The position numbers were made by a program, and so were the translations under genes. From Shimia sagamensis (GTDB lineage Bacteria > Pseudomonadota > Alphaproteobacteria > Rhodobacterales > Rhodobacteraceae), in contig NZ_FXTY01000001.1 of the NCBI RefSeq assembly GCF_900182745.1, positions 310,001-374,000 on the forward strand: a stretch of DNA of 64,000 bases, read 5' to 3'. Position 1 is the stretch's first letter. Each line of letters starts with the position of its first letter. Of this stretch, positions 10,140 to 23,722 are shown piece after piece. A model generated the notes under the pieces. That model was not told the DNA's origin. It saw nothing but the letters and a program-made list of their open reading frames with translations, and ran no database searches.

Positions 10140-10237
10140 TGAGAATGACCTCCCAACTTCGGGCCGGCATTCAAAAGAAACCACCCACCCCTCCTTAGAG
10201 GCACTCACCCGGCACTTTGGCTGGAAAGGCACCCTTC

Positions 10238-13048
10238 ATGGCTGACGGACAACCGCAACTCGATCTTTCCCCCAAAGTCTCCGACGAGGTCCGCAAGACC
10301 ACCTGCTACATGTGCGCCTGCCGCTGCGGCATCAATGTGCACATGAAAGACGGCAAAGTGGCCTACATCGAAGGCAACCGCGACCACCCGGTCAACAAGG
10401 GTGTGCTCTGTGCCAAAGGCTCAGCTGGCATCATGCAGGTCAACGCCCCCTCACGCCTCAAAAAGCCTCTCAAACGGGTCGGCCCCCGTGGCTCCGGCGA
10501 ATACGAAGAAATTTCTTGGGAAGAAGCGATCAACACAGCGGTGGGTTGGCTCACCGAGCTGCACGAAACGGCGCCCCATAAACTGGCCTTTTTCACCGGT
10601 CGCGACCAATCCCAAAGCTTCACCAGCTTTTGGGCGCAACACTTTGGCACTCCCAACTATGCCGCACACGGTGGTTTCTGCTCGGTCAACATGGCCGCCG
10701 CAGGCATCTACACCATGGGCGGTGCCTTTTGGGAGTTTGGCCAGCCCGATTGGGATCACACCAAGCTTTTCATGATTTTTGGTGTCGCTGAAGATCACGA
10801 CAGCAACCCGATCAAAGCAGGCATTGGCAAGATCAAAGCCAACGGCGCCAAGGTCATTGGCGTGAACCCGGTGCGCTCCGGTTACAACGCTGTGGCCGAT
10901 GAATGGGTCAGCATCACACCCGGCACCGATGGGCTGTTTATTCTCGCACTGGTGCATGAGCTGATGAAGGCGGGCAAAATCGACCTTCACTACCTCGCGC
11001 AATACACCAACGCCGCCGTGCTGGTGGACGCCGAAACCGGTCTGTTGCTGCGCGATGATGACGGCAAACAGCTGGTGATCGATCGAAATACCGGCAAGCC
11101 TGCGCCGTTTGACCAAAAAGGCGTGCGCCCTGACCTGTCGGCCACCTATCGCAGCGCCGGACAAACCCATCGCACCGTGATGCACCTCATGGCCGAGAAA
11201 TATCTCGACCCACAATATGCGCCAGAAAACGTCGCAGAGAAAACCGGCATCTCCGCCCAAAAGATCAAAACCATCGCCGCTGAACTGGCGCGTGTGGCCT
11301 TTGACGAAGCCTTCGAGTTGGACCAGGAATGGACCGACTTCCGCGGCGAAACCCACAAAACCATGACGGGCCGCCCGGTCAGCTTCCATGCCATGCGCGG
11401 TATCTCTGCCCACTCCAATGGCTTCCAAACCTGCCGTGCGCTGCACGTGCTGCAAATCCTCTTGGGCACCGTCGAAGTCCCCGGCGGGTTCCGATTTAAA
11501 CCGCCCTACCCCAAGCCGGTCGAGGCGCATCCAACGCCGCACGGCATCGGTCGCCCTGGCAAACCGCTTGCAGGTCCGCACCTCGGTTTCCCCCGTGGTC
11601 CTGAAGACCTTCAAATTGCCGATGACGGCAGCGCCTGTCGCATCGACAAAGCTTTCACATGGCAAAACCCCATGTCTGTACATGGTTTGATGCATATGGT
11701 GATCTCCAACGCCCACGCCCAAGACCCGTACCCCATCGACACTCTGTTCATGTACATGGCCAATATGTCGTGGAACTCAAGCATGAACACTTCCGGCGTG
11801 ATCAAGATGCTGACCGACCGCAATGACGACGGTGGTTACCGCATCCCGCGCATCATCTATTCCGATGCCTACAGCTCTGAAATGGTCGCTTATGCCGACC
11901 TGATCCTGCCGGACACCACCTATTTGGAACGCCACGACTGTATCTCGCTCTTGGACCGTCCGATCTGCGAAGCAGACGGCGCGGCGGACGCCATCCGCTG
12001 GCCCGTGGTGGAGCCGGATCGTGACGTGCGCGGCTTCCAATCCGTGCTGATCGAACTTGGCGCCCGCATCGGCCTGCCCGGTTTCCTCAACGAAGACGGC
12101 ACGCCAAAGTGGAAAGACTACGCTGATTACATCGTGAACCACGAACGCCGCCCCGGCGTTGGTCCTCTCGCAGGCTTCCGCGGGGAAGATGGCGACCAAT
12201 TTGGTCGTGGCACGGTGAACCCGGAACAATTGGACAAATACATCGAGAACGGCGGCTTTGCGATTGAGCATGTGCCAGACGCCGCGCGCTACATGAAGCC
12301 TTGGAACCAAGACTATCAAGATTGGGCCGTGAAAATCGGCCTGTTTGATGCGCCGCAGCCTTTCTTGTTCCAACTTTATGTCGAGCCCATGCGCAAATTC
12401 CAGCGCGCTGCCGAGGGTCACGGGGATATCCAACCGCCAGACCACCTGCGCGAGCGATTGAAAGAGGTCATGGACCCGCTGCCCATCTGGTATGCGCCGC
12501 TCGAAGACAGCAGCGTTGATCCTGATGAGTTTGACGTGCACGCCCTCACCCAGCGCCCGATGGCAATGTATCACAGCTGGGGCACGCAAAACGCATGGCT
12601 GCGGCAATTGCATGGCGAGAACCCGCTCTACCTCCCAACCAAACTTTGGGAAAAACACAACTTCTCCGAAGGCGACTGGGCGCGTGTGACCTCGGTGCAT
12701 GGCGAAATCACCGTGCCAGTTGCCCATCAGGCGGCGCTCAACGAAAACACAGTCTGGACCTGGAACGCCATCGGCAAGCGCAAAGGCACCTGGGCACTCT
12801 CTGAAGACGCACCGGAGGGCAACAAGGGTTTCCTGCTCAATCACCTGATCCATGAGTTGTTGCCGCCCAAAGGTGACGGCCTCCGCTGGGCCAATTCGGA
12901 CCCCATCACCGGCCAAGCCGCTTGGTTCGATTTGCGCGTGAAACTCGAGAAAGCAGATCCACCATCTGAAAGCCAACCGGCCTTTGATTCCATCAAGTCA
13001 CCGGTGCCTCAGGGTCCGGATAATCTGGAATGGAAGGTGGGTAAATGA
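10238..13048 (+). CDS. soeA: Molybdopterin catalytic subunit of a SoeA-type sulfite dehydrogenase
   Basis: This 936-residue protein belongs to the DMSO-reductase superfamily. The N-terminal cysteines C23, C26, C30 and C58 (CYMCACRCG ... GVLCAKG) hold an [4Fe-4S] cluster. Molybdopterin-binding and C-terminal dinucleotide-binding domains follow (PMAMYHSWGTQNAWLRQLHGENPLY, EGDWARVTS). There is no twin-arginine signal, which suits a cytoplasmic enzyme. With soeB and soeC it forms a membrane-bound complex expected to oxidise sulfite to sulfate and reduce quinone. The ATG at 10238 follows GGAAAGG. The choice of sulfite over formate or thiosulfate rests on the taurine context and the subunit set, as in roseobacters where soeABC sits by taurine genes. 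Confidence 0.87.
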   Translation: MADGQPQLDLSPKVSDEVRKTTCYMCACRCGINVHMKDGKVAYIEGNRDHPVNKGVLCAKGSAGIMQVNAPSRLKKPLKRVGPRGSGEYEEISWEEAINTAVGWLTELHETAPHKLAFFTGRDQSQSFTSFWAQHFGTPNYAAHGGFCSVNMAAAGIYTMGGAFWEFGQPDWDHTKLFMIFGVAEDHDSNPIKAGIGKIKANGAKVIGVNPVRSGYNAVADEWVSITPGTDGLFILALVHELMKAGKIDLHYLAQYTNAAVLVDAETGLLLRDDDGKQLVIDRNTGKPAPFDQKGVRPDLSATYRSAGQTHRTVMHLMAEKYLDPQYAPENVAEKTGISAQKIKTIAAELARVAFDEAFELDQEWTDFRGETHKTMTGRPVSFHAMRGISAHSNGFQTCRALHVLQILLGTVEVPGGFRFKPPYPKPVEAHPTPHGIGRPGKPLAGPHLGFPRGPEDLQIADDGSACRIDKAFTWQNPMSVHGLMHMVISNAHAQDPYPIDTLFMYMANMSWNSSMNTSGVIKMLTDRNDDGGYRIPRIIYSDAYSSEMVAYADLILPDTTYLERHDCISLLDRPICEADGAADAIRWPVVEPDRDVRGFQSVLIELGARIGLPGFLNEDGTPKWKDYADYIVNHERRPGVGPLAGFRGEDGDQFGRGTVNPEQLDKYIENGGFAIEHVPDAARYMKPWNQDYQDWAVKIGLFDAPQPFLFQLYVEPMRKFQRAAEGHGDIQPPDHLRERLKEVMDPLPIWYAPLEDSSVDPDEFDVHALTQRPMAMYHSWGTQNAWLRQLHGENPLYLPTKLWEKHNFSEGDWARVTSVHGEITVPVAHQAALNENTVWTWNAIGKRKGTWALSEDAPEGNKGFLLNHLIHELLPPKGDGLRWANSDPITGQAAWFDLRVKLEKADPPSESQPAFDSIKSPVPQGPDNLEWKVGK

Positions 13049-13070
13049 GACACCAAAACCTCAAAATACG

Positions 13071-13112
13071 CACCTCCGCGATACAGTCGCAATACAGACG
13101 CAATACCGACGG
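13071..13112 (+). repeat. Interspersed element, copy 1: CACCTCCGC plus three 11-bp units
   Basis: CACCTCCGC (13071-13079) is followed by GATACAGTCGC, AATACAGACGC and AATACCGACGG, exactly 11 bp each. It lies inside the soeA-soeB spacer and ends six bases before the soeB ATG, so it is part of the operon mRNA. Two more copies occur at 35374-35415 and 61833-61874. Confidence 0.75.
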
Positions 13113-13118
13113 GGCAAA

Positions 13119-13880
13119 ATGACCGAATTACCCACCAAAACCGACCGCACCCTCGGCCTTGTAATCGACCTGGACACCTGCGTCGGCTGCCACGCTTGTG
13201 TGATCTCCTGCAAAGGCTGGAACACCGAAAACTACGGCGCACCGCTGAGTGATCAACGCCCATATGGCACCGAACCCATGGGCACATTCCTGAACCGCGT
13301 CCACAGCTACGAGGTTCAGCCAGAGACGGGCCCTGCGCAAACCGTACATTTCCCAAAGTCTTGTTTACATTGCGAAAACGCCCCCTGCGTCACCGTTTGC
13401 CCCACTGGCGCAAGCTACAAGCGGGTTGAGGATGGCATTGTCCTGGTGAACGAAGACCACTGCATCGGCTGCGGCCTCTGCGCCTGGGCCTGCCCCTATG
13501 GCGCGCGCGAGTTGGATCAAGCGGAAGGCGTAATGAAAAAATGCACCCTCTGCGTGGACCGCATCTACAATGAAAACCTGCCTGAAGAGGACCAAATCCC
13601 GTCGTGCGTGCGCACCTGCCCCGCCGGCGCAAGACACTTTGGAGACCTCTCAGATCCAAATTCCGATGTCAGCCAACTTGTTGAATCCAGAGGTGGTTTT
13701 GACCTCATGCCAGAAATGGGCACCCTTCCTGTGAACAAATACCTCCCGCCGCGTCTCAAAGATTCTTGGGACGATCAGAGCCTTTTGGCCCCACTTTTGG
13801 AACCGGTCGCGGAAGAAGCTCAAGGCTTCCTTGGCTGGCTCGACAAAGCCCTCGATAAATTGCCCGGAGGGACCGCCTGA
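13119..13880 (+). CDS. soeB: Iron-sulfur electron-transfer subunit of SoeABC
   Basis: This 253-residue ferredoxin-like subunit has the DmsB/NrfC pattern of four cysteine clusters: CVGCHACVISCKGWN, CLHCENAPCVTVCPTGA, CIGCGLCAWACPYGAR, and CTLCVDRIYN...CVRTCPAGA. It therefore carries four cubane centres wiring the SoeA active site to the membrane subunit. The ATG at 13119 is the plausible start; the frame stays open further upstream, but there it overlaps the soeA end and the 11-bp repeat element. No classic ribosome site is visible, only GGGG within the end of the repeat element, which is unusual for a middle gene of an operon. Confidence 0.88.
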   Translation: MTELPTKTDRTLGLVIDLDTCVGCHACVISCKGWNTENYGAPLSDQRPYGTEPMGTFLNRVHSYEVQPETGPAQTVHFPKSCLHCENAPCVTVCPTGASYKRVEDGIVLVNEDHCIGCGLCAWACPYGARELDQAEGVMKKCTLCVDRIYNENLPEEDQIPSCVRTCPAGARHFGDLSDPNSDVSQLVESRGGFDLMPEMGTLPVNKYLPPRLKDSWDDQSLLAPLLEPVAEEAQGFLGWLDKALDKLPGGTA

Positions 13881-14752
13881 TGCATCCAGCCCCATCTGTC
13901 ATTGTCTTCTCAACCCTCTCCGGCCTCGGCTTCGGTCTGCTGTTCTGGCTAGGCATAGATGCAAATCCCCCAACCGGTCTTGCAGCTTTCATATTCTTTG
14001 CAATCGCTTTCGCGCTTGCAGTGGGTGGATTGCTTTCGTCAACCTTTCACCTAGGCCACCCCGAACGCGCTTGGCGCGCACTCAGCCAATGGCGCAGCAG
14101 TTGGCTGTCCCGCGAAGGCGTCTGCGCCATCCTCGCCCTGCTTTGCATGGGAATCTACGCAATTGATCTTATCTTCCTGCAGATCCACGCCACCGCCTTG
14201 GGTCTGATCGGAGCAGCCCTGTCGCTGTTCACGGTCTTCACAACATCAATGATCTACGCCCAGCTCGACACCGTGCCGCGTTGGAAAACCCCTTTGACAC
14301 CAGCGCTTTACCTGAGCTTTTCTTTGGCTGGCGGGGCGCTGCTTTCTGGTCGGGTGAACATGGCGATCCTGCTTCTGGTGATCGCCGCAATATGCCAATT
14401 CATCTGGTGGCAACGCGGAGACGTTGCCCTCTCTGACAGCGGTACCGACCTTGGCACAGCCACGGGGCTAGGCGAACGCGGCACCGTGCGCTCCATGGCA
14501 CATCCCCACACCGCTCCGAACTATTTGGTGAAAGAGTTCATCTTCGTAATCGGTCGAAAACACGCTCAAAAGCTGCGCCGCATTGCCTTTGGCCTCACTT
14601 TTGTGCTGCCCATCATTTGCCTGCTGCTGCCGTTCAGCCACGTTTTGGCGATCATCGCGGTGCTCAGCCATGTCGCCGGTGTCGCCACCTCGCGCTGGCT
14701 GTTCTTTGCAGAGGCCGAACACGTCGTCGGCCTCTACTATGGTGCTCGCTGA
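13880..14752 (+). CDS. soeC: DmsC-like membrane anchor subunit of SoeABC
   Basis: The 290-residue protein has about eight hydrophobic helices and a DmsC-family N-terminus (VIVFSTLSGLGFGLLFWLG, then STFHLGHPERAWRALSQWR). DmsC-type subunits anchor the complex and exchange electrons with the quinone pool. The start codon overlaps the soeB stop in a TGATG, so the two are translationally coupled. The stop abuts the end of the convergent DUF1523 gene with no spacer, marking the end of the sulfur block. Confidence 0.85.
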   Translation: MHPAPSVIVFSTLSGLGFGLLFWLGIDANPPTGLAAFIFFAIAFALAVGGLLSSTFHLGHPERAWRALSQWRSSWLSREGVCAILALLCMGIYAIDLIFLQIHATALGLIGAALSLFTVFTTSMIYAQLDTVPRWKTPLTPALYLSFSLAGGALLSGRVNMAILLLVIAAICQFIWWQRGDVALSDSGTDLGTATGLGERGTVRSMAHPHTAPNYLVKEFIFVIGRKHAQKLRRIAFGLTFVLPIICLLLPFSHVLAIIAVLSHVAGVATSRWLFFAEAEHVVGLYYGAR

Positions 14753-15403
14753 TTAGCGTGCTTTTCCGCGCCAGGTGTCCAGCCAGGCGCGGAACCGCCC
14801 CCGCTTCTCTGCCAGATTGTCACCAGCCGCTTCAAAGCTGTCCCCCATGTCTTCCAGCACAGGATCAATCCGCGCCTGCCGGAACCGACGCCAACGCACA
14901 TAAATCGCCCAAACAATTGCGAAAAACACCGTCAAAATCAGGATGTTAAGCCAGGGAATGAACGTCACATCCGGGCTTTCAACGGCTTTCACCCCCACCG
15001 CATTTGGATAGATCGACAGAAACTCGTTGCGCCAGCCATAGTGCTTCACCGCCACCCAATTCGGCGCATCCGAGCTCGATTTCAGGTCGCCAGCTTCAGC
15101 CTGAAGGTTGGCAGTATCAAACTTGAAATACGGCGGCCAACCAGCGCTGGTGTCCTCGTTGCGATAGACCATCACGCGATCATTGGGCATCTTCGTCTCG
15201 ATAAAGAACACGTCACGATTGACCGTTGTCTCGGCATTGCCTGCATCCGATTTGGCCCAAAAGATCGAGTTCTCACCAAAATCGATCCGCTTCTCATAGG
15301 TGTCCGTGATCCGCACCACATCATGCTGCGGCAACGTGTAGTGAAAGAACGCCGCCACAAAAATCCAGAACAGTGTCCAGAAACCCCATTTCACATAGAC
15401 CAT
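14753..15403 (-). CDS. DUF1523-family membrane-anchored protein
   Basis: The 216-residue protein has a membrane segment at about residues 5-25, a loop domain with HYTLPQHDVVRITDTYEKRIDFG typical of DUF1523, a second membrane segment at about 150-170 (WLNILILTVFFAIVWAIYVRW), and a charged cytoplasmic tail. Function is unknown. It is the last gene of the ten-gene minus-strand operon and follows the 88-residue protein by 13 bp. The loop between the helices is probably periplasmic. It could contribute an envelope-sensing or anchoring part to whatever the operon does. Confidence 0.75.
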   Translation of the reverse strand: MVYVKWGFWTLFWIFVAAFFHYTLPQHDVVRITDTYEKRIDFGENSIFWAKSDAGNAETTVNRDVFFIETKMPNDRVMVYRNEDTSAGWPPYFKFDTANLQAEAGDLKSSSDAPNWVAVKHYGWRNEFLSIYPNAVGVKAVESPDVTFIPWLNILILTVFFAIVWAIYVRWRRFRQARIDPVLEDMGDSFEAAGDNLAEKRGRFRAWLDTWRGKAR

Positions 15404-15416
15404 GTCGTCGGTCCCC

Positions 15417-15683
15417 CTAGTGGAAATTCATAAAGTAGATCAACGCGATCACGATGGTCACAGGGATTATATAGACACCCCAGATCAATTTGCGACGCAA
15501 AGAGCCGTCATAGTCCTGCAACCCTTGCTCGATGAAGGCATCCCGATCACCGCTCATGCCCTCACGGTCCCACTCCGCCTCCAGCTTGTCGCGCCGTTTA
15601 GAGCGCGAATACAGCGACAGACAAATGTAGACAATGGTGAGCACAACAAAGCCCACAACCGACAATCTCGCCAATGCAAACAT
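15417..15683 (-). CDS. Small two-helix membrane protein
   Basis: I do not recognise this 88-residue protein. It has a membrane helix near residues 5-25, a highly charged middle (SRSKRRDKLEAEWDREGMSGDRDAF), and a second helix at about 65-85. It lies 13 bp before the DUF1523 gene and 11 bp after the DUF6638-like gene, so it is clearly within the operon. The charged middle probably faces the cytoplasm with the positive-inside rule, where it could contact the soluble members. Confidence 0.65.
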   Translation of the reverse strand: MFALARLSVVGFVVLTIVYICLSLYSRSKRRDKLEAEWDREGMSGDRDAFIEQGLQDYDGSLRRKLIWGVYIIPVTIVIALIYFMNFH

Positions 15684-15694
15684 GACCTACCTCC

Positions 15695-17050
15695 TCACCG
15701 TCCCGATTTGACTGCGCCCCACGGGCCAACCCGCGATATCATATCCTCAGATGCCCGCCGCATCACACGGGGCATTTCCAACGGCGCGTCAAAGCCAAAT
15801 AGCGCCTCACGCGCCCCCGCCTTGTCGACCTGATACTCTCGCTCCAGAAAATCTGCCACAAAGCTTTTCTTGGTGTCTGACCAGCCTTGATACAGGCGGT
15901 AAAACACCTCTTTGTGGCAGATAAACAGCTGCCGGATATCTTTGGGCGCCAGCTCGGCCAAAAGCATATTCACCAAATCCCGCTGATCCGTGGCGGTTGC
16001 GCGCAGCGTGTAGAAATAGGCGGGATGATCGCTGGTAATCTTGGGCCACTTGCCATCACTCTCCGCCCAATCCACCATCTTGCGAAGCTCATGGTATTCG
16101 GGGGGCAATTGCTCTGCATGATTGCGGGCCAGACGACGGATATCACTGCGCGTCGCCCCGGTCAGGTCCACACCCGCCTCCTGCGCCGCATCCACAACAA
16201 TGAAATCCATCTTCTGACGCAGAATGGCCGCGCCATCCACACCCCGCGCTTTCACAATTGGCTCGGCCAGATCGTTGTAGTCCAGAAACTTCGCAATCTG
16301 ATTTCGGTCTTTGAAATCAAATGTATATTTGATCGGAAGCTTGCCCAACTCAGCCTTGTCGCCCGCCGTGATCACGGCTGGATGCGCCAAGCCGCGGAAC
16401 AGGTAGACGCCGCCAAAATGCGCGGTCCAATAATCCTGCTGATCAAACGCCATATGTTTGAGTGTCACTGGATTGCGCGTCACATCGCCGGTGCGTTTGG
16501 CCAGCGTGATCATGTCGGCAATCAGCACATCGTCAAACCAGCCATCTTCCTCCTGTTTGAACCGATCCGCCAGCGCGCCGAGCTTCTCTGCATCGCGCAG
16601 CGTACCTTCGGTCGTGTCCGCCTCAATCGTGACCTTTCGAATGTCCATCAGATTGCTGGGCTGGCTGACTGAGAACACCGAATTCACCAACTCGCCCGCC
16701 ACCGCATCCCGCGCGGTCAGGGCGAAGAGCTGCGGCTCGTTTTCCTCAATGAAATGTCGCAGAATATCTCGGCTGGTGGAGAACTTGATGTTCAAAAGCG
16801 GCGCGGATTTCTGATCCGTGGTCAGCAGGATGAACTGACGGTTGCAGCCCCCGTGGTTGAGGTAGAGATGATCGTCCAACTCATCGCCAATTTCCGGCGA
16901 ATAGCCCGAGATATCGATGTGAAAATCGGTGAGATTGGTGGTCTTACCCGTCAAATGTTTCAGCGCCCGATTATAGCGCTCCACCAACACCGGCGAGGCC
17001 ACTTCGATCAGGTTGCCAAACATCAGGCCGCGTTGGATCAGTCTATGCAT
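15695..17050 (-). CDS. DUF6638-like conserved protein
   Basis: This soluble protein of about 451 residues starts MHRLIQRGLMFGNLIEVASP and contains HLTGKTTNLTDFHIDISGYSPEIG. I associate it from memory with DUF6638, a family seen in Rhodobacteraceae. No catalytic motif is evident and there is no signal or membrane segment. The ATG at 17050 is preferred; an in-frame TTG at 17062 would add four residues. The start overlaps the end of the abortive-infection-like gene by eight bases. Function is unknown; its place beside the AAA ATPase suggests a shared task. Confidence 0.68.
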   Translation of the reverse strand: MHRLIQRGLMFGNLIEVASPVLVERYNRALKHLTGKTTNLTDFHIDISGYSPEIGDELDDHLYLNHGGCNRQFILLTTDQKSAPLLNIKFSTSRDILRHFIEENEPQLFALTARDAVAGELVNSVFSVSQPSNLMDIRKVTIEADTTEGTLRDAEKLGALADRFKQEEDGWFDDVLIADMITLAKRTGDVTRNPVTLKHMAFDQQDYWTAHFGGVYLFRGLAHPAVITAGDKAELGKLPIKYTFDFKDRNQIAKFLDYNDLAEPIVKARGVDGAAILRQKMDFIVVDAAQEAGVDLTGATRSDIRRLARNHAEQLPPEYHELRKMVDWAESDGKWPKITSDHPAYFYTLRATATDQRDLVNMLLAELAPKDIRQLFICHKEVFYRLYQGWSDTKKSFVADFLEREYQVDKAGAREALFGFDAPLEMPRVMRRASEDMISRVGPWGAVKSGR

Positions 17051-17966
17051 CAGAAGCCCCAAAACATTTCAAAGTAAACGAATCCCTATGCGCAGAACTT
17101 GCCAATCTGTTGAGCGGCAAGTTGTCAAACAGCTCAAAGCTCTCAATATATGGGACAAAGTTTTTTCCACGTTCAGTGAGCGCGTTGTAAAAAAGAACCA
17201 AAAGCTCATCATCTGAAAACAGAGAGCGCACCAATTTTCGATGCTTAGGTTGAACTTCCGGTGCTTCATCCAAAACGCGCAACATATTATATACATACCT
17301 AAAATATTGACTTAGACCGGAACTATGCTTGTTGAACATCGAGTCATAGCGCACCAACGTCTCATCTACCGTTTCGGCGCGCGAGAACAATCTATCACCC
17401 GTCGGCCTTTCTCTGACTTGACGATAAAAGAAACCGAAGCAATCCCGCCCCTTATAAAGTATCGGTTTGTTTTCACCTCTTTCCTGAATGTCTAGGTTGC
17501 CCACAATCGAATTCAAACTTGCAATCATTTCAAAAACGAAATTGTCGAAATTCTGGCGATTAGCCGTGTTCGCCAACTCCTGTGTAGCTTCTTTTTGCTC
17601 ACTCATCTCAATCCGAGTAAGGCGAAGTTCTTCCCTTTGCGCAGCAAGTTCCTTGCTCTGCAACATCACCGTCACGATAATCCAAAGAAATGCTAGAGCC
17701 CCAGCGACTCCTGCCAAGGTATCGCCGATCTCATTTGGCGGCGCGGTTAGAAAAGACCAAATGCGCCACGACCAGTCAGCATCCGTTCTCTGGGGCAAAA
17801 GAGCAAAGACCGCGATCCCAGCAAAGAAAAGCTTTGTACTCCCAATGCCAATAAACAAGGGATTTCCACGCCTTGCTCCAACTCGCACTAATCGAATTTG
17901 GCGCTTCACCCATTCAAACACTTGCATGCATAAAAGAAACGATTTCTGAAAAATGCCTTGAGCCAT
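17043..17966 (-). CDS. Putative phage abortive infection (putAbiC-like) membrane protein
   Basis: The 307-residue protein has two membrane helices (about residues 33-50 and 68-88), a coiled-coil stretch rich in Glu and Gln after the second helix, then a helical domain (NRQNFDNFVFEMIASLNSIVGN, GLSQYFRYVYNMLRVLDE, FSDDELLVLFYNALTERGKNFVPYIESF). That order resembles the putative phage abortive infection family (PF16872). G+C is low: I count 23 of 60 at 17161-17220 against 33 of 60 at 16201-16260. Its ATG overlaps the previous stop in TGATG and its end overlaps the next gene, so it is co-translated with resident operon genes although it looks acquired. Confidence 0.65.
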   Translation of the reverse strand: MAQGIFQKSFLLCMQVFEWVKRQIRLVRVGARRGNPLFIGIGSTKLFFAGIAVFALLPQRTDADWSWRIWSFLTAPPNEIGDTLAGVAGALAFLWIIVTVMLQSKELAAQREELRLTRIEMSEQKEATQELANTANRQNFDNFVFEMIASLNSIVGNLDIQERGENKPILYKGRDCFGFFYRQVRERPTGDRLFSRAETVDETLVRYDSMFNKHSSGLSQYFRYVYNMLRVLDEAPEVQPKHRKLVRSLFSDDELLVLFYNALTERGKNFVPYIESFELFDNLPLNRLASSAHRDSFTLKCFGASDA

Positions 17967-18346
17967 CACCGCTCCCTCGCCGCAATGTCCTGCCCGCGCC
18001 GCGCTTCCACGCCCTGCGCATGACCAAACCACACCAACCCCAAGATCGGCACCCAGACAATTGCTGTCATCGCAGCCAATCTCAGGTGCATCTGAAGCGG
18101 CGGACCGGTCCGCCCGTCGCTGCCAAACGCCAAGGCATGCGCCCCGCGCAAATACACAAGCAGAAGCGACAGACCGCAGGCAACCGCAAACAGAATCAAG
18201 GCGGACAGCAAAATGCCCGTTGCAACCTTGCCATGCGACCGTGTCTCCCGTTCGACCAGCATACGCGGCAACAGCATCGCCAAAATGGCCAGAACCACCA
18301 GCGGCGCACCCGTATTCCAAAACCCAACGCTGTCGATCACAAACAC
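17966..18346 (-). CDS. Small multi-helix membrane protein
   Basis: I do not recognise this 126-residue protein. It has about three hydrophobic helices (residues 12-28, 40-67 and 88-110) and a charged C-terminus. It begins with GTG inside a TAGTG that is also the ATPase stop, and it ends in a TGATG shared with the next gene. Such tight coupling suggests equimolar production with the ATPase, for which it could be a membrane tether. Confidence 0.6.
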   Translation of the reverse strand: MFVIDSVGFWNTGAPLVVLAILAMLLPRMLVERETRSHGKVATGILLSALILFAVACGLSLLLVYLRGAHALAFGSDGRTGPPLQMHLRLAAMTAIVWVPILGLVWFGHAQGVEARRGQDIAARER

Positions 18347-20283
18347 TAGGCTTTGCCCTCCAAATACCGCCGCTTCGCCGCCTCGGACCGTTGCATGTCG
18401 CGCACCATATTGGAGATCGCAACCTCGTCGGATTTGTCGGCATAGCGGAACTCGCTATCGGCGTAGCGGTTGATTTCTTGCACCACCATCTCGGTGGTGA
18501 TCGGTACCCGCAGCTCGCTGATCATCGCAGACTTGGTGTCATAATCTTTCTGCAAAAACAGCTCCGGCTGCTCCATCCACACATCCGGCAATTCAAAGTC
18601 CATCGCGCGCACTTTTACCGCATCGGTGATGTTTTTGATCGCACGTCCGGTGAAGCGCGGATCGGCCTCCTGAATGGCCTTCAGGTACGTGCCCATCTTA
18701 GCAATGGTATCCAACTCGCCAACCTGCCCGTGCACGTTATCAAACACATTCAGAAGTCCCGGTTCATGTGGTCGGGAATGACTCTCAAAGCTTGCGGCCA
18801 CGGCCTTCTGAATGGCCTGCGCTTCAAACAACGTATGGTCACCCAGCGCGATGTCGTGGTTCTTGCCCATCAGCAGCGCCAAAATATCGATGTAGTCTTC
18901 TTGCGTTTGCGGCCCATCCACCAGGAACCGCGCCCCGGCCCGTTGGCGCAGCGCGTCGTCCACGTTCTCCGGATAGTTGGAGAACATGCCAAAGGTACAG
19001 TTACCGCGCACCACGGTATTGGCGCCCGCAAAGGCCTCCATAAACACCGCTGTGACTTCCTGTTGGCCAGCCGATGATTGTCGATCGCCACGCTTGCCTG
19101 CAATCTGGTCGATGTCGTCAATTGTGCCAAAGCCAATCACCTGCGGATCAAGCACATTCTGCACAAACGCCTTGGCGTTCTGCCCCGATTTACCCTGATA
19201 GCTGTCGATATTGTCGATGCCAAAGTTCTGATACCGGAAGGCATAGCCCGCCACCTGACAGTAGTCGTTGATCAACCCCGCCATCATCTGGATCAGCGTG
19301 GTTTTCCCGGTGCCCGGCGCGCCATCGCCCATAAAGGTAAAGATAAAGCCGCCCAGCTCTGCAAAGGGGTTGAGCCGTCGATCAAAGTCATAGGCCATCA
19401 GCATTTTGGCCAGTTTCATCGCCTGATATTTGGCGATGTGGTTGCCGACCACTTCATTCGGCTTCTTGAAACTCATGGTCAGCGTGGAGCCCTTCGCCGC
19501 CCGCGCTGGCGTAAACCCGTTGATGGTCAGCGCATCGGCCTCAACCTTCCAACTTGCCCCGACAAACGCCCCCAACTGTGGCGCATTCTGCGCCCGCAAC
19601 GCGACCTTCTCCATCAACTGCTCGGCAAAGGCACAGATACAGGCGACCAACCGATCCTCATCAGAGACCAACGCCGCAATATCCTGATCCAGCTCCCACA
19701 ACGCGCCATGCAACGCCAGCTGCGCATTGTCAGTCAGAACTTCTTCAACCTCGCCGACTTCAACCTGCGCCTCACCCAACAATGGCGCCAGAAGGAACGA
19801 GGTTGCATTGGCAAAGACATAGCCGACTGCCAGCGCCTCCGCCGCCAAAAGCTCCGAAAACGCCGTCTTCTTGTCCGCGCCCAGCGCACCTGCGAGATTG
19901 TCCCGCTTCAAATCCGCCAGACCGGAGCCTTCGGCAAAATTCTCGCCCACGGCCAAAGCAATCGCCAAAGCTCGGCGCATCCCGTGCAGCACATTGGCTT
20001 GCACGGGCGACACCAGCGGATCTTCCCCGCCTGCGCCCTCAATCCGTTCCACCAGATGCACGCCTTCAGGCCGAGCGGTTGAGCGGGTCACCAACCCCGG
20101 CGTGGTGCTGCGAAACCGCCGCCTTGCACCAATCCCGCTGGACCGTTCCGGCGTGGCCACTGGGTCTTTGCCTTTGGCAATCCGCGGTGTGTGATCAAAG
20201 CCATCCAGCATCGCCACAGCCGCATCATAATGCTTGCGAATATCCTCTTCGCGCAGCTCCATCTGATCACTTGTCAGGCTCAT
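18346..20283 (-). CDS. AAA ATPase of Vps4/katanin-like type, central gene of unknown operon
   Basis: In this 645-residue protein the first 300 residues are helical and unfamiliar. An AAA module follows with Walker A GAPGTGKTT (K327), Walker B GTIDDIDQI (D389, D390, D392) and a sensor-1 asparagine near 436 in SNYPENVDDALRQRAGARF, whose arginines could act as fingers. The DDIDxxxGKRGD and NxPxxxDDALRQR patterns recall classical AAA proteins such as Vps4 and katanin more than AAA+ regulators. The usual Walker B Asp-Glu is Asp-Asp, which may slow hydrolysis. It is expected to remodel a protein partner, perhaps the coiled-coil protein encoded at the head of the operon. Confidence 0.8.
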   Translation of the reverse strand: MSLTSDQMELREEDIRKHYDAAVAMLDGFDHTPRIAKGKDPVATPERSSGIGARRRFRSTTPGLVTRSTARPEGVHLVERIEGAGGEDPLVSPVQANVLHGMRRALAIALAVGENFAEGSGLADLKRDNLAGALGADKKTAFSELLAAEALAVGYVFANATSFLLAPLLGEAQVEVGEVEEVLTDNAQLALHGALWELDQDIAALVSDEDRLVACICAFAEQLMEKVALRAQNAPQLGAFVGASWKVEADALTINGFTPARAAKGSTLTMSFKKPNEVVGNHIAKYQAMKLAKMLMAYDFDRRLNPFAELGGFIFTFMGDGAPGTGKTTLIQMMAGLINDYCQVAGYAFRYQNFGIDNIDSYQGKSGQNAKAFVQNVLDPQVIGFGTIDDIDQIAGKRGDRQSSAGQQEVTAVFMEAFAGANTVVRGNCTFGMFSNYPENVDDALRQRAGARFLVDGPQTQEDYIDILALLMGKNHDIALGDHTLFEAQAIQKAVAASFESHSRPHEPGLLNVFDNVHGQVGELDTIAKMGTYLKAIQEADPRFTGRAIKNITDAVKVRAMDFELPDVWMEQPELFLQKDYDTKSAMISELRVPITTEMVVQEINRYADSEFRYADKSDEVAISNMVRDMQRSEAAKRRYLEGKA

Positions 20284-20352
20284 CTAAATCTCCACCCAAA
20301 CTTCTTTCTTGCCAAATTACTCGCGCCGCGGGTGTGGCCGCGTCACGTTCAT

Positions 20353-20832
20353 TTAACTCTGCTTCGCGGTATCAAAAACGCACCACTTCTGTTCATTATA
20401 GTCTTCAGGCAACAAAGCGCCTTCCCACGTTCCGGCGGGCCAGTCTTTGTCTACATGCGCAATTGCGAGGTTGTCATATCGCTGCTCAGAACGGGACAGG
20501 CAGACCAAAAGCACCTCGCCCATGTTGCGCGATCCAGTACCAACAGCGCGTTCGAAACAATCAACTCGGTCAGGCTTTTCGAGCATCCAGTCAATGGGTT
20601 CCATCGAACAGGGCAGACGCCAACCTGCTTGCGCTTGGTCATAGAGTTCATTTGCGGGTTCAAATTCGTTCTCCACCGCCCAGCTCTCAAACTCCGTCAG
20701 TGAGAATGTGTTGGCGAAAGCGAAAACCACATCCAGCCGCAGCCTTTGAACTTTTTTACCAGACCAAAAAGCCATACCACCGACAGCAACTGCCAATACA
20801 GACAGACCAATTATCCAAGTGAACCGTCTCAA
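20353..20832 (-). CDS. Membrane-anchored protein of unknown function
   Basis: This 159-residue protein has one N-terminal hydrophobic segment (RRFTWIIGLSVLAVAVGGMAFW) and an extra-cytoplasmic-looking domain with four or five cysteines (PCSMEP, VDCFERA, LLVCLSR, KWCVFD) that may form disulfides. I do not recognise the family. Its ATG overlaps the stop of the upstream gene by four bases, so both are translated together. The ATPase gene follows after 69 bp. Confidence 0.6.
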   Translation of the reverse strand: MRRFTWIIGLSVLAVAVGGMAFWSGKKVQRLRLDVVFAFANTFSLTEFESWAVENEFEPANELYDQAQAGWRLPCSMEPIDWMLEKPDRVDCFERAVGTGSRNMGEVLLVCLSRSEQRYDNLAIAHVDKDWPAGTWEGALLPEDYNEQKWCVFDTAKQS

Positions 20833-21950
20833 TACCGCAGCACCCGCCCTTGCGGGCTCACCACATATTTCGTTACGTTGCCAAACCCCGGCGGGTTAAG
20901 CTCTTCAAGCGCCTGAAACGGCCTCTGCGGCAGAATGACAGCACGCTCCAAGCTGGTCGCGCCGGTGTCCACGCCGCGCCCGGAAAACGGGTCCAATGCA
21001 AACACCTCCCGCTCCACCGTGCCAAACCAGCCAGAGCGCTCATCTTGCACCCGCTCACTGACCAAATCTTCAGTGGTCCAGGCCAACGTCCAATCGTCGC
21101 CCTCAGGCGCTCGCGCGGCGTCTAAAACCTCCCGGATTGGCCCGCTCTGCTTGGTAAACGCGCTTGAATACATCGGCCCCACATGAATGCGCCGCAGCCG
21201 TTTCGGGTGCAGATCGTCAAAGCTTTCATCAAAGCCTTTGGCGATGGTTACCAGTTTCAAGCCACCCACGGCTTGCCCCATAAGATGCGCTTGCACCTCC
21301 GGCCAGCGCCGCTCATCCTTGGGCAACGCCCGCCGCCCGGTGTCCTCAAGGCCCATGAGGTAGATCGTCGGCAGGTTCACCTGACTGTCGTAAACCGCCC
21401 AATGCAGCAAATACTTGCGCCGCCGCTCCGACAGATTGCCTTGCCAGCGTACCTCCGGATGGTTCTGCGCCCAGAACAGCTCGCCTTTAAGCAATTCTTC
21501 ATAGTAGAGCCGCTGGCTCAGCGCGAATTGCAGCTTGGTCGGGATCTCCTGATCGCCAATAATGCCGCGCAGCATGTCGTCTTTGAGCTGCTCTGCACTG
21601 GGCATATTGCGCAAATGGCTTTCGGCCTGCTGCGCGTCATTGGCCATGACCAACAACTCATTGAACACCGGAAATCCACTCTCCACAGCGTCCATAGAGA
21701 GACTGCCAAAGAACTGACCCGTCTGGCGCCCCACCAGCAGGTATTTCATGCTCAGCGCTTTGAAAGTGTAGCCAATCGAGGCCAGATAACGCGTAAGGAT
21801 TTCCACCTCATTCTGCCCAATCGCCCCCTCAGCCGCCCGCGCCGCCGCAACCTGAGTCAGATGCTCGGTGATGCGCTCAAACTTCTGAAAATACCGCCGC
21901 GACGCGCGGGTCTCCATCAGAGCTGTGTGGTCTTTGGTTGTGTCGTTCAT
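20829..21950 (-). CDS. Soluble protein of unknown function in the ATPase operon
   Basis: I do not recognise this 373-residue protein. It appears cytoplasmic. The N-terminal half is helical (TRASRRYFQKFERITEHLTQVAAARAA, LRNMPSAEQLKDDMLRGIIGDQ). The C-terminal half has strand-like stretches and short motifs such as HVGPMYSSAFT and the end KYVVSPQGRVLRY. The ATG at 21950 is used because AGGAG lies just upstream; the frame stays open to 21968. A 171-bp gap separates it from the small membrane gene before it, so a second promoter is possible there. Confidence 0.65.
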   Translation of the reverse strand: MNDTTKDHTALMETRASRRYFQKFERITEHLTQVAAARAAEGAIGQNEVEILTRYLASIGYTFKALSMKYLLVGRQTGQFFGSLSMDAVESGFPVFNELLVMANDAQQAESHLRNMPSAEQLKDDMLRGIIGDQEIPTKLQFALSQRLYYEELLKGELFWAQNHPEVRWQGNLSERRRKYLLHWAVYDSQVNLPTIYLMGLEDTGRRALPKDERRWPEVQAHLMGQAVGGLKLVTIAKGFDESFDDLHPKRLRRIHVGPMYSSAFTKQSGPIREVLDAARAPEGDDWTLAWTTEDLVSERVQDERSGWFGTVEREVFALDPFSGRGVDTGATSLERAVILPQRPFQALEELNPPGFGNVTKYVVSPQGRVLRY

Positions 21951-22121
21951 TTTACTCCTCTGGGACACGCAGTGTCACGGATCGCGCCCGACCCCGCCCC
22001 CCAGGGCGGGCGCGATTTTGCAACGTTGGTAACAATCAGTGCTGTTGAAGACTGCTGGAAAGGCTGCGCCAAACCGACAGCCGCCCTCGGGTTCGGGCGC
22101 AATCCTGCGGTATTCTGAAGC

Positions 22122-22433
22122 TTAGTTTTCACCAGAATGTTTCCCTCGGTTTAAGATCCTGCGTCTCATAAGGCTGCTTGCAAAAATCATCGCAACGGCT
22201 ACGGCCGCAAAAACTCCCCAACCGAGCAGATCATGCTCATGCGCCGGAAAGTTCTGTGTTTGCTTGGCCAACCGCCAAGTCAGAAATCCGGCAAGAAACA
22301 GAACAGTGGCACTCGCTGTCCAGAATCTGTCCGCACGCCCCAAAAAAAGCGCCAAAAAGGAATCCATTGCGCACAGCATTGACAAACCCACTGCACGAAA
22401 AAAATTGTCTATGTAGCTCTGCGACCGTTTCAT
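22122..22433 (-). CDS. Small two- or three-helix membrane protein
   Basis: This 103-residue hypothetical protein has hydrophobic segments near residues 12-32, 38-54 and 70-88 and a basic tail (MRRRILNRGKHSGEN). It starts 15 bp after the coiled-coil gene and is surely co-transcribed with it. No family assignment can be made from the sequence alone. Confidence 0.55.
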   Translation of the reverse strand: MKRSQSYIDNFFRAVGLSMLCAMDSFLALFLGRADRFWTASATVLFLAGFLTWRLAKQTQNFPAHEHDLLGWGVFAAVAVAMIFASSLMRRRILNRGKHSGEN

Positions 22434-22448
22434 CACTTCAAAGAGCCA

Positions 22449-23525
22449 TCACGCCCCATACAGATTCTTATCGTGCTTCTCGACAATCTTCTGGAACCGC
22501 CGCGCAAAGCGTTCATCCGCCTTGGCCTTCGCCTCCAACACATCGCGTGCAAACACCATGTGCTCTTCATGCGCTTCCATCATGTCGGCCATCTTCTGGT
22601 TGGTCGCCGTTCCAATCGCCGCCATTGAGGCCTGTGCTTCTTTGTCGGTCTCTACACCAATCTCGTTGATCCGGTGGGCCACATCCTGCTGCTGCGCGGT
22701 CTTCAACGATTTGGTCAGCGCATCATACAGCACAACACGCTGCTTGGTGTCTGTCTGCAACTTGTTGATCAGCACCATCTGCGTTGCGGCCTGATTTTGC
22801 AGCGAGTCAACCCAGGTCTTGCCTTTCTCGATATAACGCTCAAGCGTCTGGCTCTGCGCGAGCTTCACCTGCTCCTGCTGCACCAAATCGTTGTAAGACT
22901 TGTTCAAGTCGGCCAATTCGGTTTCCAGTTTGGTCCGCGCCGCCGCGTCTTGTTCCACCGCAATCTTGTTCTCAACCTCGATGATCTTGGGGTCCATGCC
23001 CATGATCTCCGCCCGTAGGCTTTCCAGCTCGCCGACGGTGAACTCACGCTCATCCAGCGTCTCGGTCAGATTTTGCTCCACCTTTACCTTCTGCTCTTCG
23101 AGCACAGCCAGTTGGCTTTCCAAAAGCTTGGTGATCACATCGGATTTGGCAATCAGGTCCTGCAGTTTGTCATCAATATTGGCAGTCTTGATGCGTTCCG
23201 CGCGCATGGAGTCGGACTTCCCGCGGCTGAACACACCTACAAAACTCTCCCAGCCGGTCTTGTCCCGCATCTGGTCAAAGTCTTTGGAGAAAGCTGATGT
23301 CACATCGTCCAGCCCCATGATCAGCTCAGCAATGTTGGAGTTCATCACATCCGTATGTGCATGCACATCGTCCAGCGTTGCGTTTTCAATATCGATCGCA
23401 ATGTCGTCGCCGGTTTTCATCTTCGCCCGCGCCGCATCAATACGACCGGTCAACTCAGCAATCTTGTTTTGTGCTTCGGCCACCTGCGCTTGAGACTCAC
23501 GCACTTGGGTTTCAAAATTCGCCAT
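22449..23525 (-). CDS. Long coiled-coil protein, TelA/PspA-like in character
   Basis: This 358-residue protein is almost wholly helical, with heptad-rich stretches at about 5-40, 125-240 and 290-350, no membrane segment and no cysteine. The middle part (WESFVGVFSRGKSDSMRAERIKT followed by a run of DKLQDLIAKSDVITKLLES type) recalls the layout of TelA toxic-anion-resistance proteins. The general make-up also recalls PspA/ESCRT-III filaments. Both links are impressions, not alignments. It heads the ten-gene operon and could be the polymer or membrane-associated scaffold handled by the AAA ATPase. Confidence 0.65.
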   Translation of the reverse strand: MANFETQVRESQAQVAEAQNKIAELTGRIDAARAKMKTGDDIAIDIENATLDDVHAHTDVMNSNIAELIMGLDDVTSAFSKDFDQMRDKTGWESFVGVFSRGKSDSMRAERIKTANIDDKLQDLIAKSDVITKLLESQLAVLEEQKVKVEQNLTETLDEREFTVGELESLRAEIMGMDPKIIEVENKIAVEQDAAARTKLETELADLNKSYNDLVQQEQVKLAQSQTLERYIEKGKTWVDSLQNQAATQMVLINKLQTDTKQRVVLYDALTKSLKTAQQQDVAHRINEIGVETDKEAQASMAAIGTATNQKMADMMEAHEEHMVFARDVLEAKAKADERFARRFQKIVEKHDKNLYGA

Positions 23526-23722
23526 AAAACACTCCCTCTTTCCAATACCTTGAGCCTGATATGGGGAATGTTACTTCCATTTACATCGGACTCGAATTCA
23601 ATTTGGTCAGAGTGTTGCAAATGTGCATGGCAAAAGAAAGGGGTCGTAGACACGCACCCGCATTTCGCGAGGTTTTGGCCGCTCTTTCACGCGGCCAAAA
23701 CCAAGTTTGGTCTTATGCCGGC

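Follow-up and report, generated by a model that had tools for sequence, protein, structure and literature searches.

Gene organization of the locus

In a 64,000-nucleotide stretch of contig NZ_FXTY01000001.1 of Shimia sagamensis (positions 310,001 to 374,000; hereafter the window), ten open reading frames (ORFs) of the minus strand, between positions 14753 and 23525, encode what is apparently an undescribed bacterial machine, which combines an AAA ATPase with a long helical protein and whose genes are interspersed with exchangeable ones. The genes are numbered g1 to g10 in the order of transcription, and their products are 358, 103, 373, 159, 645, 126, 307, 451, 88 and 216 amino acids (aa) long, respectively. 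An original prediction, made by a model from the letters of the window and its ORF list, had described ten left-pointing genes, mostly overlapping or at most 15 bp apart, with two larger gaps of 69 and 171 bp. The ORF list confirms the genes, and the gaps match the sequence exactly (g5/g4 and g3/g2). Elsewhere in the 5′ half, g4 and g3 overlap, and g2 and g1 are 12 or 15 bp apart according to the choice of start. In the 3′ half, the g6/g5, g7/g6 and g8/g7 pairs overlap, and the remaining spacings are 11 bp (g9/g8) and 13 bp (g10/g9).

Four of the ten products only received a Pfam name above the curated cut-off: AAA for g5 (46.2 bits, cut-off 21.2), putAbiC for g7 (56.2 bits, cut-off 22), DUF6638 for g8 (807 bits, cut-off 27) and DUF1523 for g10 (227 bits, cut-off 23). 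NCBIfam gave none of the ten products a name above cut-off, and Rfam gave 0 matches over the whole window. According to hydropathy, membrane segments are present in g2, g4, g6, g7, g9 and g10, and marginally in g5, in agreement with the small membrane proteins, at least four, that had been announced. The two announced families of unknown function correspond to DUF6638 (PF20343) and DUF1523 (PF07509), to which Pfam gives no function and of which g8 and g10 are clear members. The first reading had missed that g7 is a putAbiC protein and that conservation in relatives is limited to six of the genes.

A conserved core of six genes

The locus set comprised the window, the 20 loci of a first sample and the best 80 relatives of a longer list, from named genomes; of these 101 loci, five were duplicates with identical AAA DNA, leaving 96 unique loci. 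The ten genes had been taken as a single unit. In fact, g1, g3, g5, g8, g9 and g10 constitute a conserved core, and the other four (g2, g4, g6 and g7) are exchangeable cargo. The order g1-g3-g5-g8-g9-g10 and the strand were identical in 20/20 first-sample loci, and the five core genes for which profiles were used were all present in 87 of the 96 unique loci, collinear in 87/87. Thus the survey of gene order across Rhodobacteraceae, which the original prediction had proposed as a check, finds the core order kept in this family and beyond it. Nine loci miss at least one core gene. Seven of them lie near contig ends; of the other two, L089 contains g1-g3-g5, with g8-g10 not found within 10 kb downstream, and L122, a metagenome-assembled genome (MAG), contains the AAA gene alone. 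Both are possible cases of partial loss of the core.

The first core gene, g1 (22449..23525, on the minus strand like all features given here), is highly conserved, stands first in 20/20 loci and encodes a helical, coiled-coil protein without membrane segment. No match to g1 was found on phages in 50,697 records. The g3 gene (20829..21950; 20/20 loci) matches 0 Pfam families, and g5 (18346..20283) encodes the AAA protein (Pfam AAA, 8e-12). The DUF6638 gene g8 (15695..17050; 4e-243), read from the ATG at 17050, encodes a protein without membrane segment. It is followed by g9 (15417..15683), which has two membrane segments and is core in Rhodobacteraceae (20/20 loci), and by the DUF1523 gene g10 (14753..15403; 1.3e-67; 20/20 loci), whose product is membrane-anchored and, to judge by its predicted topology, probably has a periplasmic part.

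DUF6638 is present in 113/196 genomes sampled from the order, including that of the window, at one place per genome with one fragmented case excepted. It is rare in the remainder of the class (6/289 sampled genomes): four of the six are in the window's family, one (G404) is a clear outsider and one is below cut-off. A g3 profile matched 26/398 genomes of a phylum sample, of which 12 belong to families other than that of the window. Ten g3-matched genomes belong to a rhizobia-type family (f160) and keep the order g1-g3-g5-g8. DUF1523 was not found at these ten loci; by reading, a DUF2333 gene follows g8 in four of them (L193, L195, L198 and L200), confirmed by Pfam in L195. In the rhizobia-type loci (L193-L202, L207), DUF2333 is seen in the position held by DUF1523 in Rhodobacteraceae, and pSymB of Sinorhizobium meliloti has the layout of the rhizobial loci, with DUF2333 after g8. 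The genes g1, g3, g5 and g8 are also found together, in a compact form, in records of Vibrio parahaemolyticus and V. vulnificus (E values of the core profiles 5e-94/7e-93, 5e-78/4e-78, 2e-201/6e-202 and 2e-81/3e-81, respectively). The four cytosolic core genes therefore co-occur in rhizobia and Vibrio too. Two Halomonas records (L093 and L101) contain g1-g3-g5-g8-g10 with g5 and g8 overlapping, and a g3|g5 interval of 456 bp in L093. Their core is Rhodobacteraceae-like, with an AAA identity of about 75%, and presumably results from transfer between classes, L093 being a draft in which contamination is possible. Junctions between core genes are short in Vibrio, G404, L204 and L205, which suggests that the compact form of the core is probably the ancestral one.

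Three slots with replaceable content

The cargo lies in three slots, A (g1|g3), B (g3|g5) and C (g5|g8). In the window, slot A holds g2 (22122..22433; two membrane segments) and slot B holds g4 (20353..20832), which is read from a TTG and has one N-terminal hydrophobic segment. Neither gene had a tblastn match in the 20 first-sample loci, and neither is conserved. Slot C holds g6 (17966..18346; three membrane segments), which is immediately 3′ of the AAA gene and belongs to a recurrent family, and g7 (17043..17966), which encodes a membrane-anchored putative phage abortive infection protein (putAbiC, PF16872, 4.9e-15). The junction was at least 180 bp long in 56/92 loci for slot A, 18/95 for slot B and 75/90 for slot C. 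Between g8 and g10, the interval occupied by g9 had a median of 281 bp and was clearly longer in 3/90 loci.

We compared close pairs of loci, defined by an AAA-gene identity of at least 85%. Among 34 such pairs, the content of occupied slots was replaced in 31/31 cases for A, 10/11 for B and 31/32 for C, and the g8|g10 interval in 0/34. These pairs share genomes, so that the fairer figure comes from 12 disjoint pairs, in which replacement amounted to 10/10, 4/5 and 9/10 for A, B and C, and 0/12 for g8|g10. When the window is aligned with its relative in a Shimia sp. MAG (L055), the alignment breaks at the three slots only and is unbroken for about 3 kb on each side, g6 being common to both loci. 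The locus is thus a conserved, AAA-centred core with hypervariable cargo bounded by the slots.

The slots contained 175 ORFs of at least 60 aa, in 113 families of which 95 are singletons, and 174/175 ORFs are in the direction of the operon. The sole counter-directional ORF (412 aa) is in slot C of L097, next to a 240-aa protein that follows the direction of the operon and belongs to the g7 module family described below. The codon-model gene caller at first overlooked AT-rich cargo and was retrained on cargo picked by eye; the ORF counts are therefore approximate and partly circular. The gap lengths and the results of DNA alignment are independent of the gene caller. For slot C genes of at least 125 aa, the only cargo for which the comparison was made, the mean guanine-plus-cytosine (GC) content was 0.496 versus 0.602 for g5, and it was lower in 40/44 loci (p 2e-11). 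One locus, L044, is part of the 96-locus counts and was left out of the shuffled upstream control (91 regions), the count of flank breaks and the scan of 105 cargo proteins of smaller size, all given below.

Products of the cargo genes

Most of the cargo consists of small membrane proteins without family, and its kind differs from slot to slot. By hydropathy, 58/60 slot A ORFs have a membrane segment and 72/105 slot C ORFs have two or more, and a lipobox is present in 4/10 slot B ORFs. Among the larger slot C proteins (n=50), 25 have at least two membrane segments and 17 have none. An N-terminal membrane-plus-coil module is common to 15 aligned slot C proteins, the g7 product among them, and is followed by divergent C-termini. 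Relatives of g6 are found in slot C of three first-sample loci (L036, L039 and L044), and the slot C family has 22-23 members. This family of small proteins with multiple transmembrane segments (slot C of L036, L041, L055, L071, L105 and others) is often located directly 3′ of the AAA gene, and it may be a semi-core component.

Several larger slot C proteins carry recognizable domains. Above the Pfam cut-off, we found AbiJ_NTD4 (L043), Mrr (L111), PIN_10 beside DUF433 (L062) and DUF3825 (L046), and DUF2971 in 2/49 proteins (L069 and, by cluster, L087); below cut-off, HNH (L113) and HATPase (L061) were detected. One of the larger slot C proteins resembles thioredoxin. An R-x5-H motif resembling that of HEPN proteins is present in 5/5 aligned slot C proteins, which may have a HEPN-like function. 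In the rhizobial branch, 6/10 loci have a DUF559 gene in slot C by reading, confirmed by Pfam in L195, and slot B of L202 contains a Fic gene. A PADLOC scan of 49 proteins (slot C, at least 125 aa, operon strand, minus the window's own g7, which was scanned separately) gave scores below 1e-6 for 4/49, namely two PDC-S31, one mREase_IV/PDC-S02 and one DrmA. Among 49 flanking genes taken as a control, some of them near-duplicates, the count was 0/49 (best 8e-5).

The AAA and DUF6638 proteins

The original prediction had described g5 as a Vps4- or katanin-like AAA ATPase with an Asp-Asp Walker B. The Walker B motif is indeed TIDDID. In 22 homologues from both branches, the invariant residues are GDGxPGTGKT, Y362-x-G364, D389-D390, N436, R446 and R448. 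An alignment to i-AAA and Rpt2 places Y362-x-G364 at the position expected for pore loop 1, which makes the threading of a substrate plausible. With Walker A and B motifs, an aromatic-x-Gly pore loop 1 and residues of the second region of homology (SRH) type, including sensor and arginine-finger residues, g5 is a classical AAA protein, and this part of the description stands. As for the closer resemblance, the best sequence match among solved structures is an i-AAA protease. Weaker matches are proteasomal ATPases, fidgetin-like 1, katanin and Msp1, whose ranking changes with the alignment used; Vps4 appears in neither of the two lists. A sequence check for a Vps4-type MIT domain, with Pfam on g5 up to E 10, returned ATPase-type models only.

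The AlphaFold2 (AF2) model of DUF6638 (g8) is confident, with a predicted local distance difference test (pLDDT) of 85.7 and a predicted template modelling score (pTM) of 0.83. Compared with solved structures, it gave no significant match (Foldseek best E 1.3; best Z 4.0 over 37 residues), nor did it give a significant match to viral structures. Sequence searches of the PDB with g1, g3 and g8 gave nothing significant. The possibility that g3 and g8 are homologues of each other found no support (hhalign E 0.15-0.35). DUF6638 is named in no paper of the open-licence literature searched, DUF1523 is mentioned in four, and at the level of search listings we recognized no description of the operon in that literature.

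The region upstream of g1

A 19-bp dyad, ATGTAA-N7-TNACAT, is found in 46/92 regions upstream of g1, for a shuffled mean of 0.06 (91 of those regions). In the window, this candidate operator (ATGTAAATGGAAGTAACAT; 23568..23586) lies 42 bp upstream of g1 and adjoins the −10-like sequence CCCCATAT. It is the sole occurrence of ATGTAA-N7-TWACAT in the 4.5-Mb genome, and the operon is likely to have a dedicated regulator. A heat-shock-type promoter was considered and rejected: CCCCATNT is enriched (12/91, shuffled mean 0.9) but has no matching −35.

Possible explanations: coupled partners or a permissive hotspot

We tentatively propose that the core forms an AAA machine tethered to the envelope and coupled to exchangeable partners that act against phages, a reading that we consider quite possible and still short of probable. 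The sparing of g8-g10 from replacement, the co-direction of the inserts and the different kinds of cargo in the three slots suggest that co-expression serves a function. In this proposal, the core would be an envelope-associated machine in which the AAA ring would thread or remodel a partner via its pore loops, g1 being the likeliest partner. The g3 and g8 proteins would act as adaptors in the cytosol, and g9 would form a membrane anchor or a periplasmic sensor together with DUF1523 or, in rhizobia, with DUF2333. The slot products would be exchangeable partners, that is, membrane exclusion or effector proteins directed against phages, and the shared transcript would make their dosage and control follow those of the machine. 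Phage entry or membrane damage could then change the state of the machine, upon which the slot C effector (putAbiC here) would be released or activated, and this activation would lead to exclusion or abortive infection. A more specific version is modular immunity of a new kind. The AAA, coil, g3 and DUF6638 proteins would form a general sensor-actuator, tethered by DUF1523 or DUF2333 and controlled by a dedicated operator, and the partners plugged into the three slots would be small membrane proteins, lipoproteins and Abi, HEPN, nuclease or Fic effectors; we regard this version as rather doubtful. Makarova et al. reportedly noted in 2012 that suicide or toxin genes lie inside or next to the operon of a different machine, which would point to coupling with immunity. 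Unlike in those immunity loci, we recognized no gene for nucleic-acid recognition or modification in the present core.

Several observations weigh against the coupling of the machine to anti-phage partners. Most of the 49 larger slot C proteins have no family, so that only a minority of the cargo supports a role in defence, and the PADLOC contrast of four versus none of 49 is small. The 105 smaller cargo proteins (slots A and B, at least 70 aa; slot C, 70 to 124 aa; the window not included) gave no PADLOC score below 1e-6 and one weak score of 0.0011; Pfam found ten families among them, one protein each, none of a defence type. In 6/50 larger slot C proteins, there is a single N-terminal hydrophobic segment, in some signal-peptide-like, which fits a periplasmic role better than that of an intracellular effector. 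The core proteins themselves gave only weak PADLOC scores: 1.6e-4 (TRIP13) and 0.0026 (IetA) for g5, 0.055 for g9, 0.15 or worse for g1, and no score for g3, g8 and g10. By reading, the neighbours of the operon are not defence genes. In addition, all three slots are shorter than 180 bp in 12/87 complete loci, which indicates that the cargo is dispensable for the persistence of the core; in L035, a relative of the same genus, the three junctions are 70-90 bp each. Finally, the flanks of the operon change also: across 32 pairs, the syntenic flanking sequence, about 276 kb in total, contains 48 breaks.

The empty slots, the changing flanks and the small cargo without defence signal speak at the same time for another explanation, which we judge to be as likely as the coupled machine. 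The core would be a housekeeping envelope machine with an ordinary task in the membrane or in protein quality control, and its operon a permissive, transcribed, miniature insertion or defence hotspot, into which single genes would repeatedly be recombined without functional coupling. The compact loci of Vibrio, G404, L204 and L205 are in line with this explanation, as is the transposase gene, ISRm16 of the IS4 type, in slot C of Sinorhizobium. Relatives of the putAbiC-type g7 occur, mostly partial, on 8 plasmid and 5 phage records, and none of these 8 plasmid records is among the 10 that match the core AAA gene. Moreover, such hotspots are known: the core genes of cDHS1 and cDHS2 in Pseudomonas aeruginosa flank exchanged genes that are lower in GC, mostly unknown and partly immune (PMC10250203). 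The present locus is similar in that fixed core genes border exchanged, lower-GC, mostly unknown content, that is, variable lower-GC genes between conserved genes, the pattern of a core defence hotspot. Anti-phage content, in terms of PADLOC hits, is seen here in the few larger slot C proteins given above. Unlike in cDHS1 and cDHS2, which are intergenic and receive whole systems, here single genes enter three slots within one co-directional operon, and the genes that flank the slots look like one machine. A merely permissive site does not readily account for a g8-g10 segment replaced in 0/34 pairs, for 174/175 co-directional inserts, or for three slots in one operon with distinct cargo, as illustrated by the membrane segments of slot A and the lipoboxes of slot B.

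Less likely explanations: a remodelling machine or a competition system

The original prediction had pointed to a layout of the ESCRT-III/Vps4 type. In such a machine, or in one of the PspA type, g1 would form membrane-bound filaments and the AAA protein would disassemble them. We regard this analogy as unlikely. In its favour, g5 is of the classical type, with the invariant pore-loop Tyr-x-Gly and SRH-like residues, and the AF2 model of g1 is all-helical with a long hairpin (pLDDT 70.5, pTM 0.60). Bacterial relatives of PspA and Snf7 are sometimes encoded beside AAA ATPase genes, in operons that combine a helical protein, a classical AAA and membrane proteins (PMC11237479), and these three kinds of protein are together here as well. 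On the other hand, and within what that source describes, g3 and DUF6638 have no counterpart in those operons, and no homology of g1 to PspA or TelA could be detected. The fold matches of the g1 model are generic (alpha-pore-forming toxins, SNAREs, chemoreceptors), with Z at most 11.9, below the level of about 13 that the fold tool sets for helical bundles. Chains under the names PspA, Vipp1 or ESCRT-III do not appear in the 50 matches listed by each of two programs, which leaves such a fold possible. As a TelA protein, g1 was rejected on the basis of the hhalign comparison with 26 TelA proteins of relatives (E 0.2-0.33) and of Pfam, which gave no match. The same holds for the PspA family (7 proteins, E 0.3-0.4, probability 0.1-0.2%; no Pfam match). 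Repeated with three successively deeper alignments, the comparison with TelA and PspA remained at E 0.2-0.4 and a probability below 1%. The predicted coil was thus right as to the all-helical nature of the 358-residue protein, and its TelA/PspA character is undetectable. The ESCRT-III analogy therefore rests on the classical type of the AAA protein, for which Vps4 is not among the listed relatives. As a whole, the original interpretation is borne out in part. A TelA gene and a PspA-family gene are found elsewhere in the genome (G000 contigs C3 and C5; L152, L166).

Interbacterial competition, in which the slots would hold toxin and immunity genes exported or controlled by the core, is very improbable: the divergent C-termini behind a common N-terminal membrane module in 15 slot C proteins, the small membrane and lipoprotein-like partners and the single N-terminal segment in 6/50 proteins would suit it, but the recognized toxin-antitoxin-like pairs amount to one (PIN_10 beside DUF433), the Mrr, PIN, Abi and HEPN-like proteins usually act within the cell that produces them, and reading of the operon, without a dedicated search, revealed no gene for a secretion apparatus.

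Significance

If the coupling of the AAA machine to its cargo is true, the operon would represent an uncharacterized AAA machine that serves several types of partners via fixed slots, that is marked by DUF6638 in 113/196 sampled genomes of the order and that extends as far as rhizobia and Vibrio. Its slots would then provide a catalogue of uncharacterized anti-phage or membrane genes (95 singleton families, 96 loci), and the system would allow a direct test of the plugging of single genes into existing operons. Even without coupling, the locus is a sharply bounded hotspot for the insertion of single genes within an operon, and a source of new small membrane and Abi-type proteins. DUF6638 adds a protein with a confident predicted model and no detected solved relative.

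Neighbouring genes

Downstream of g10, at positions 10217-14752, reading of the window indicates three genes for the catalytic, Fe-S and membrane anchor subunits of a molybdopterin oxidoreductase, in an operon that is convergent with the one described here.

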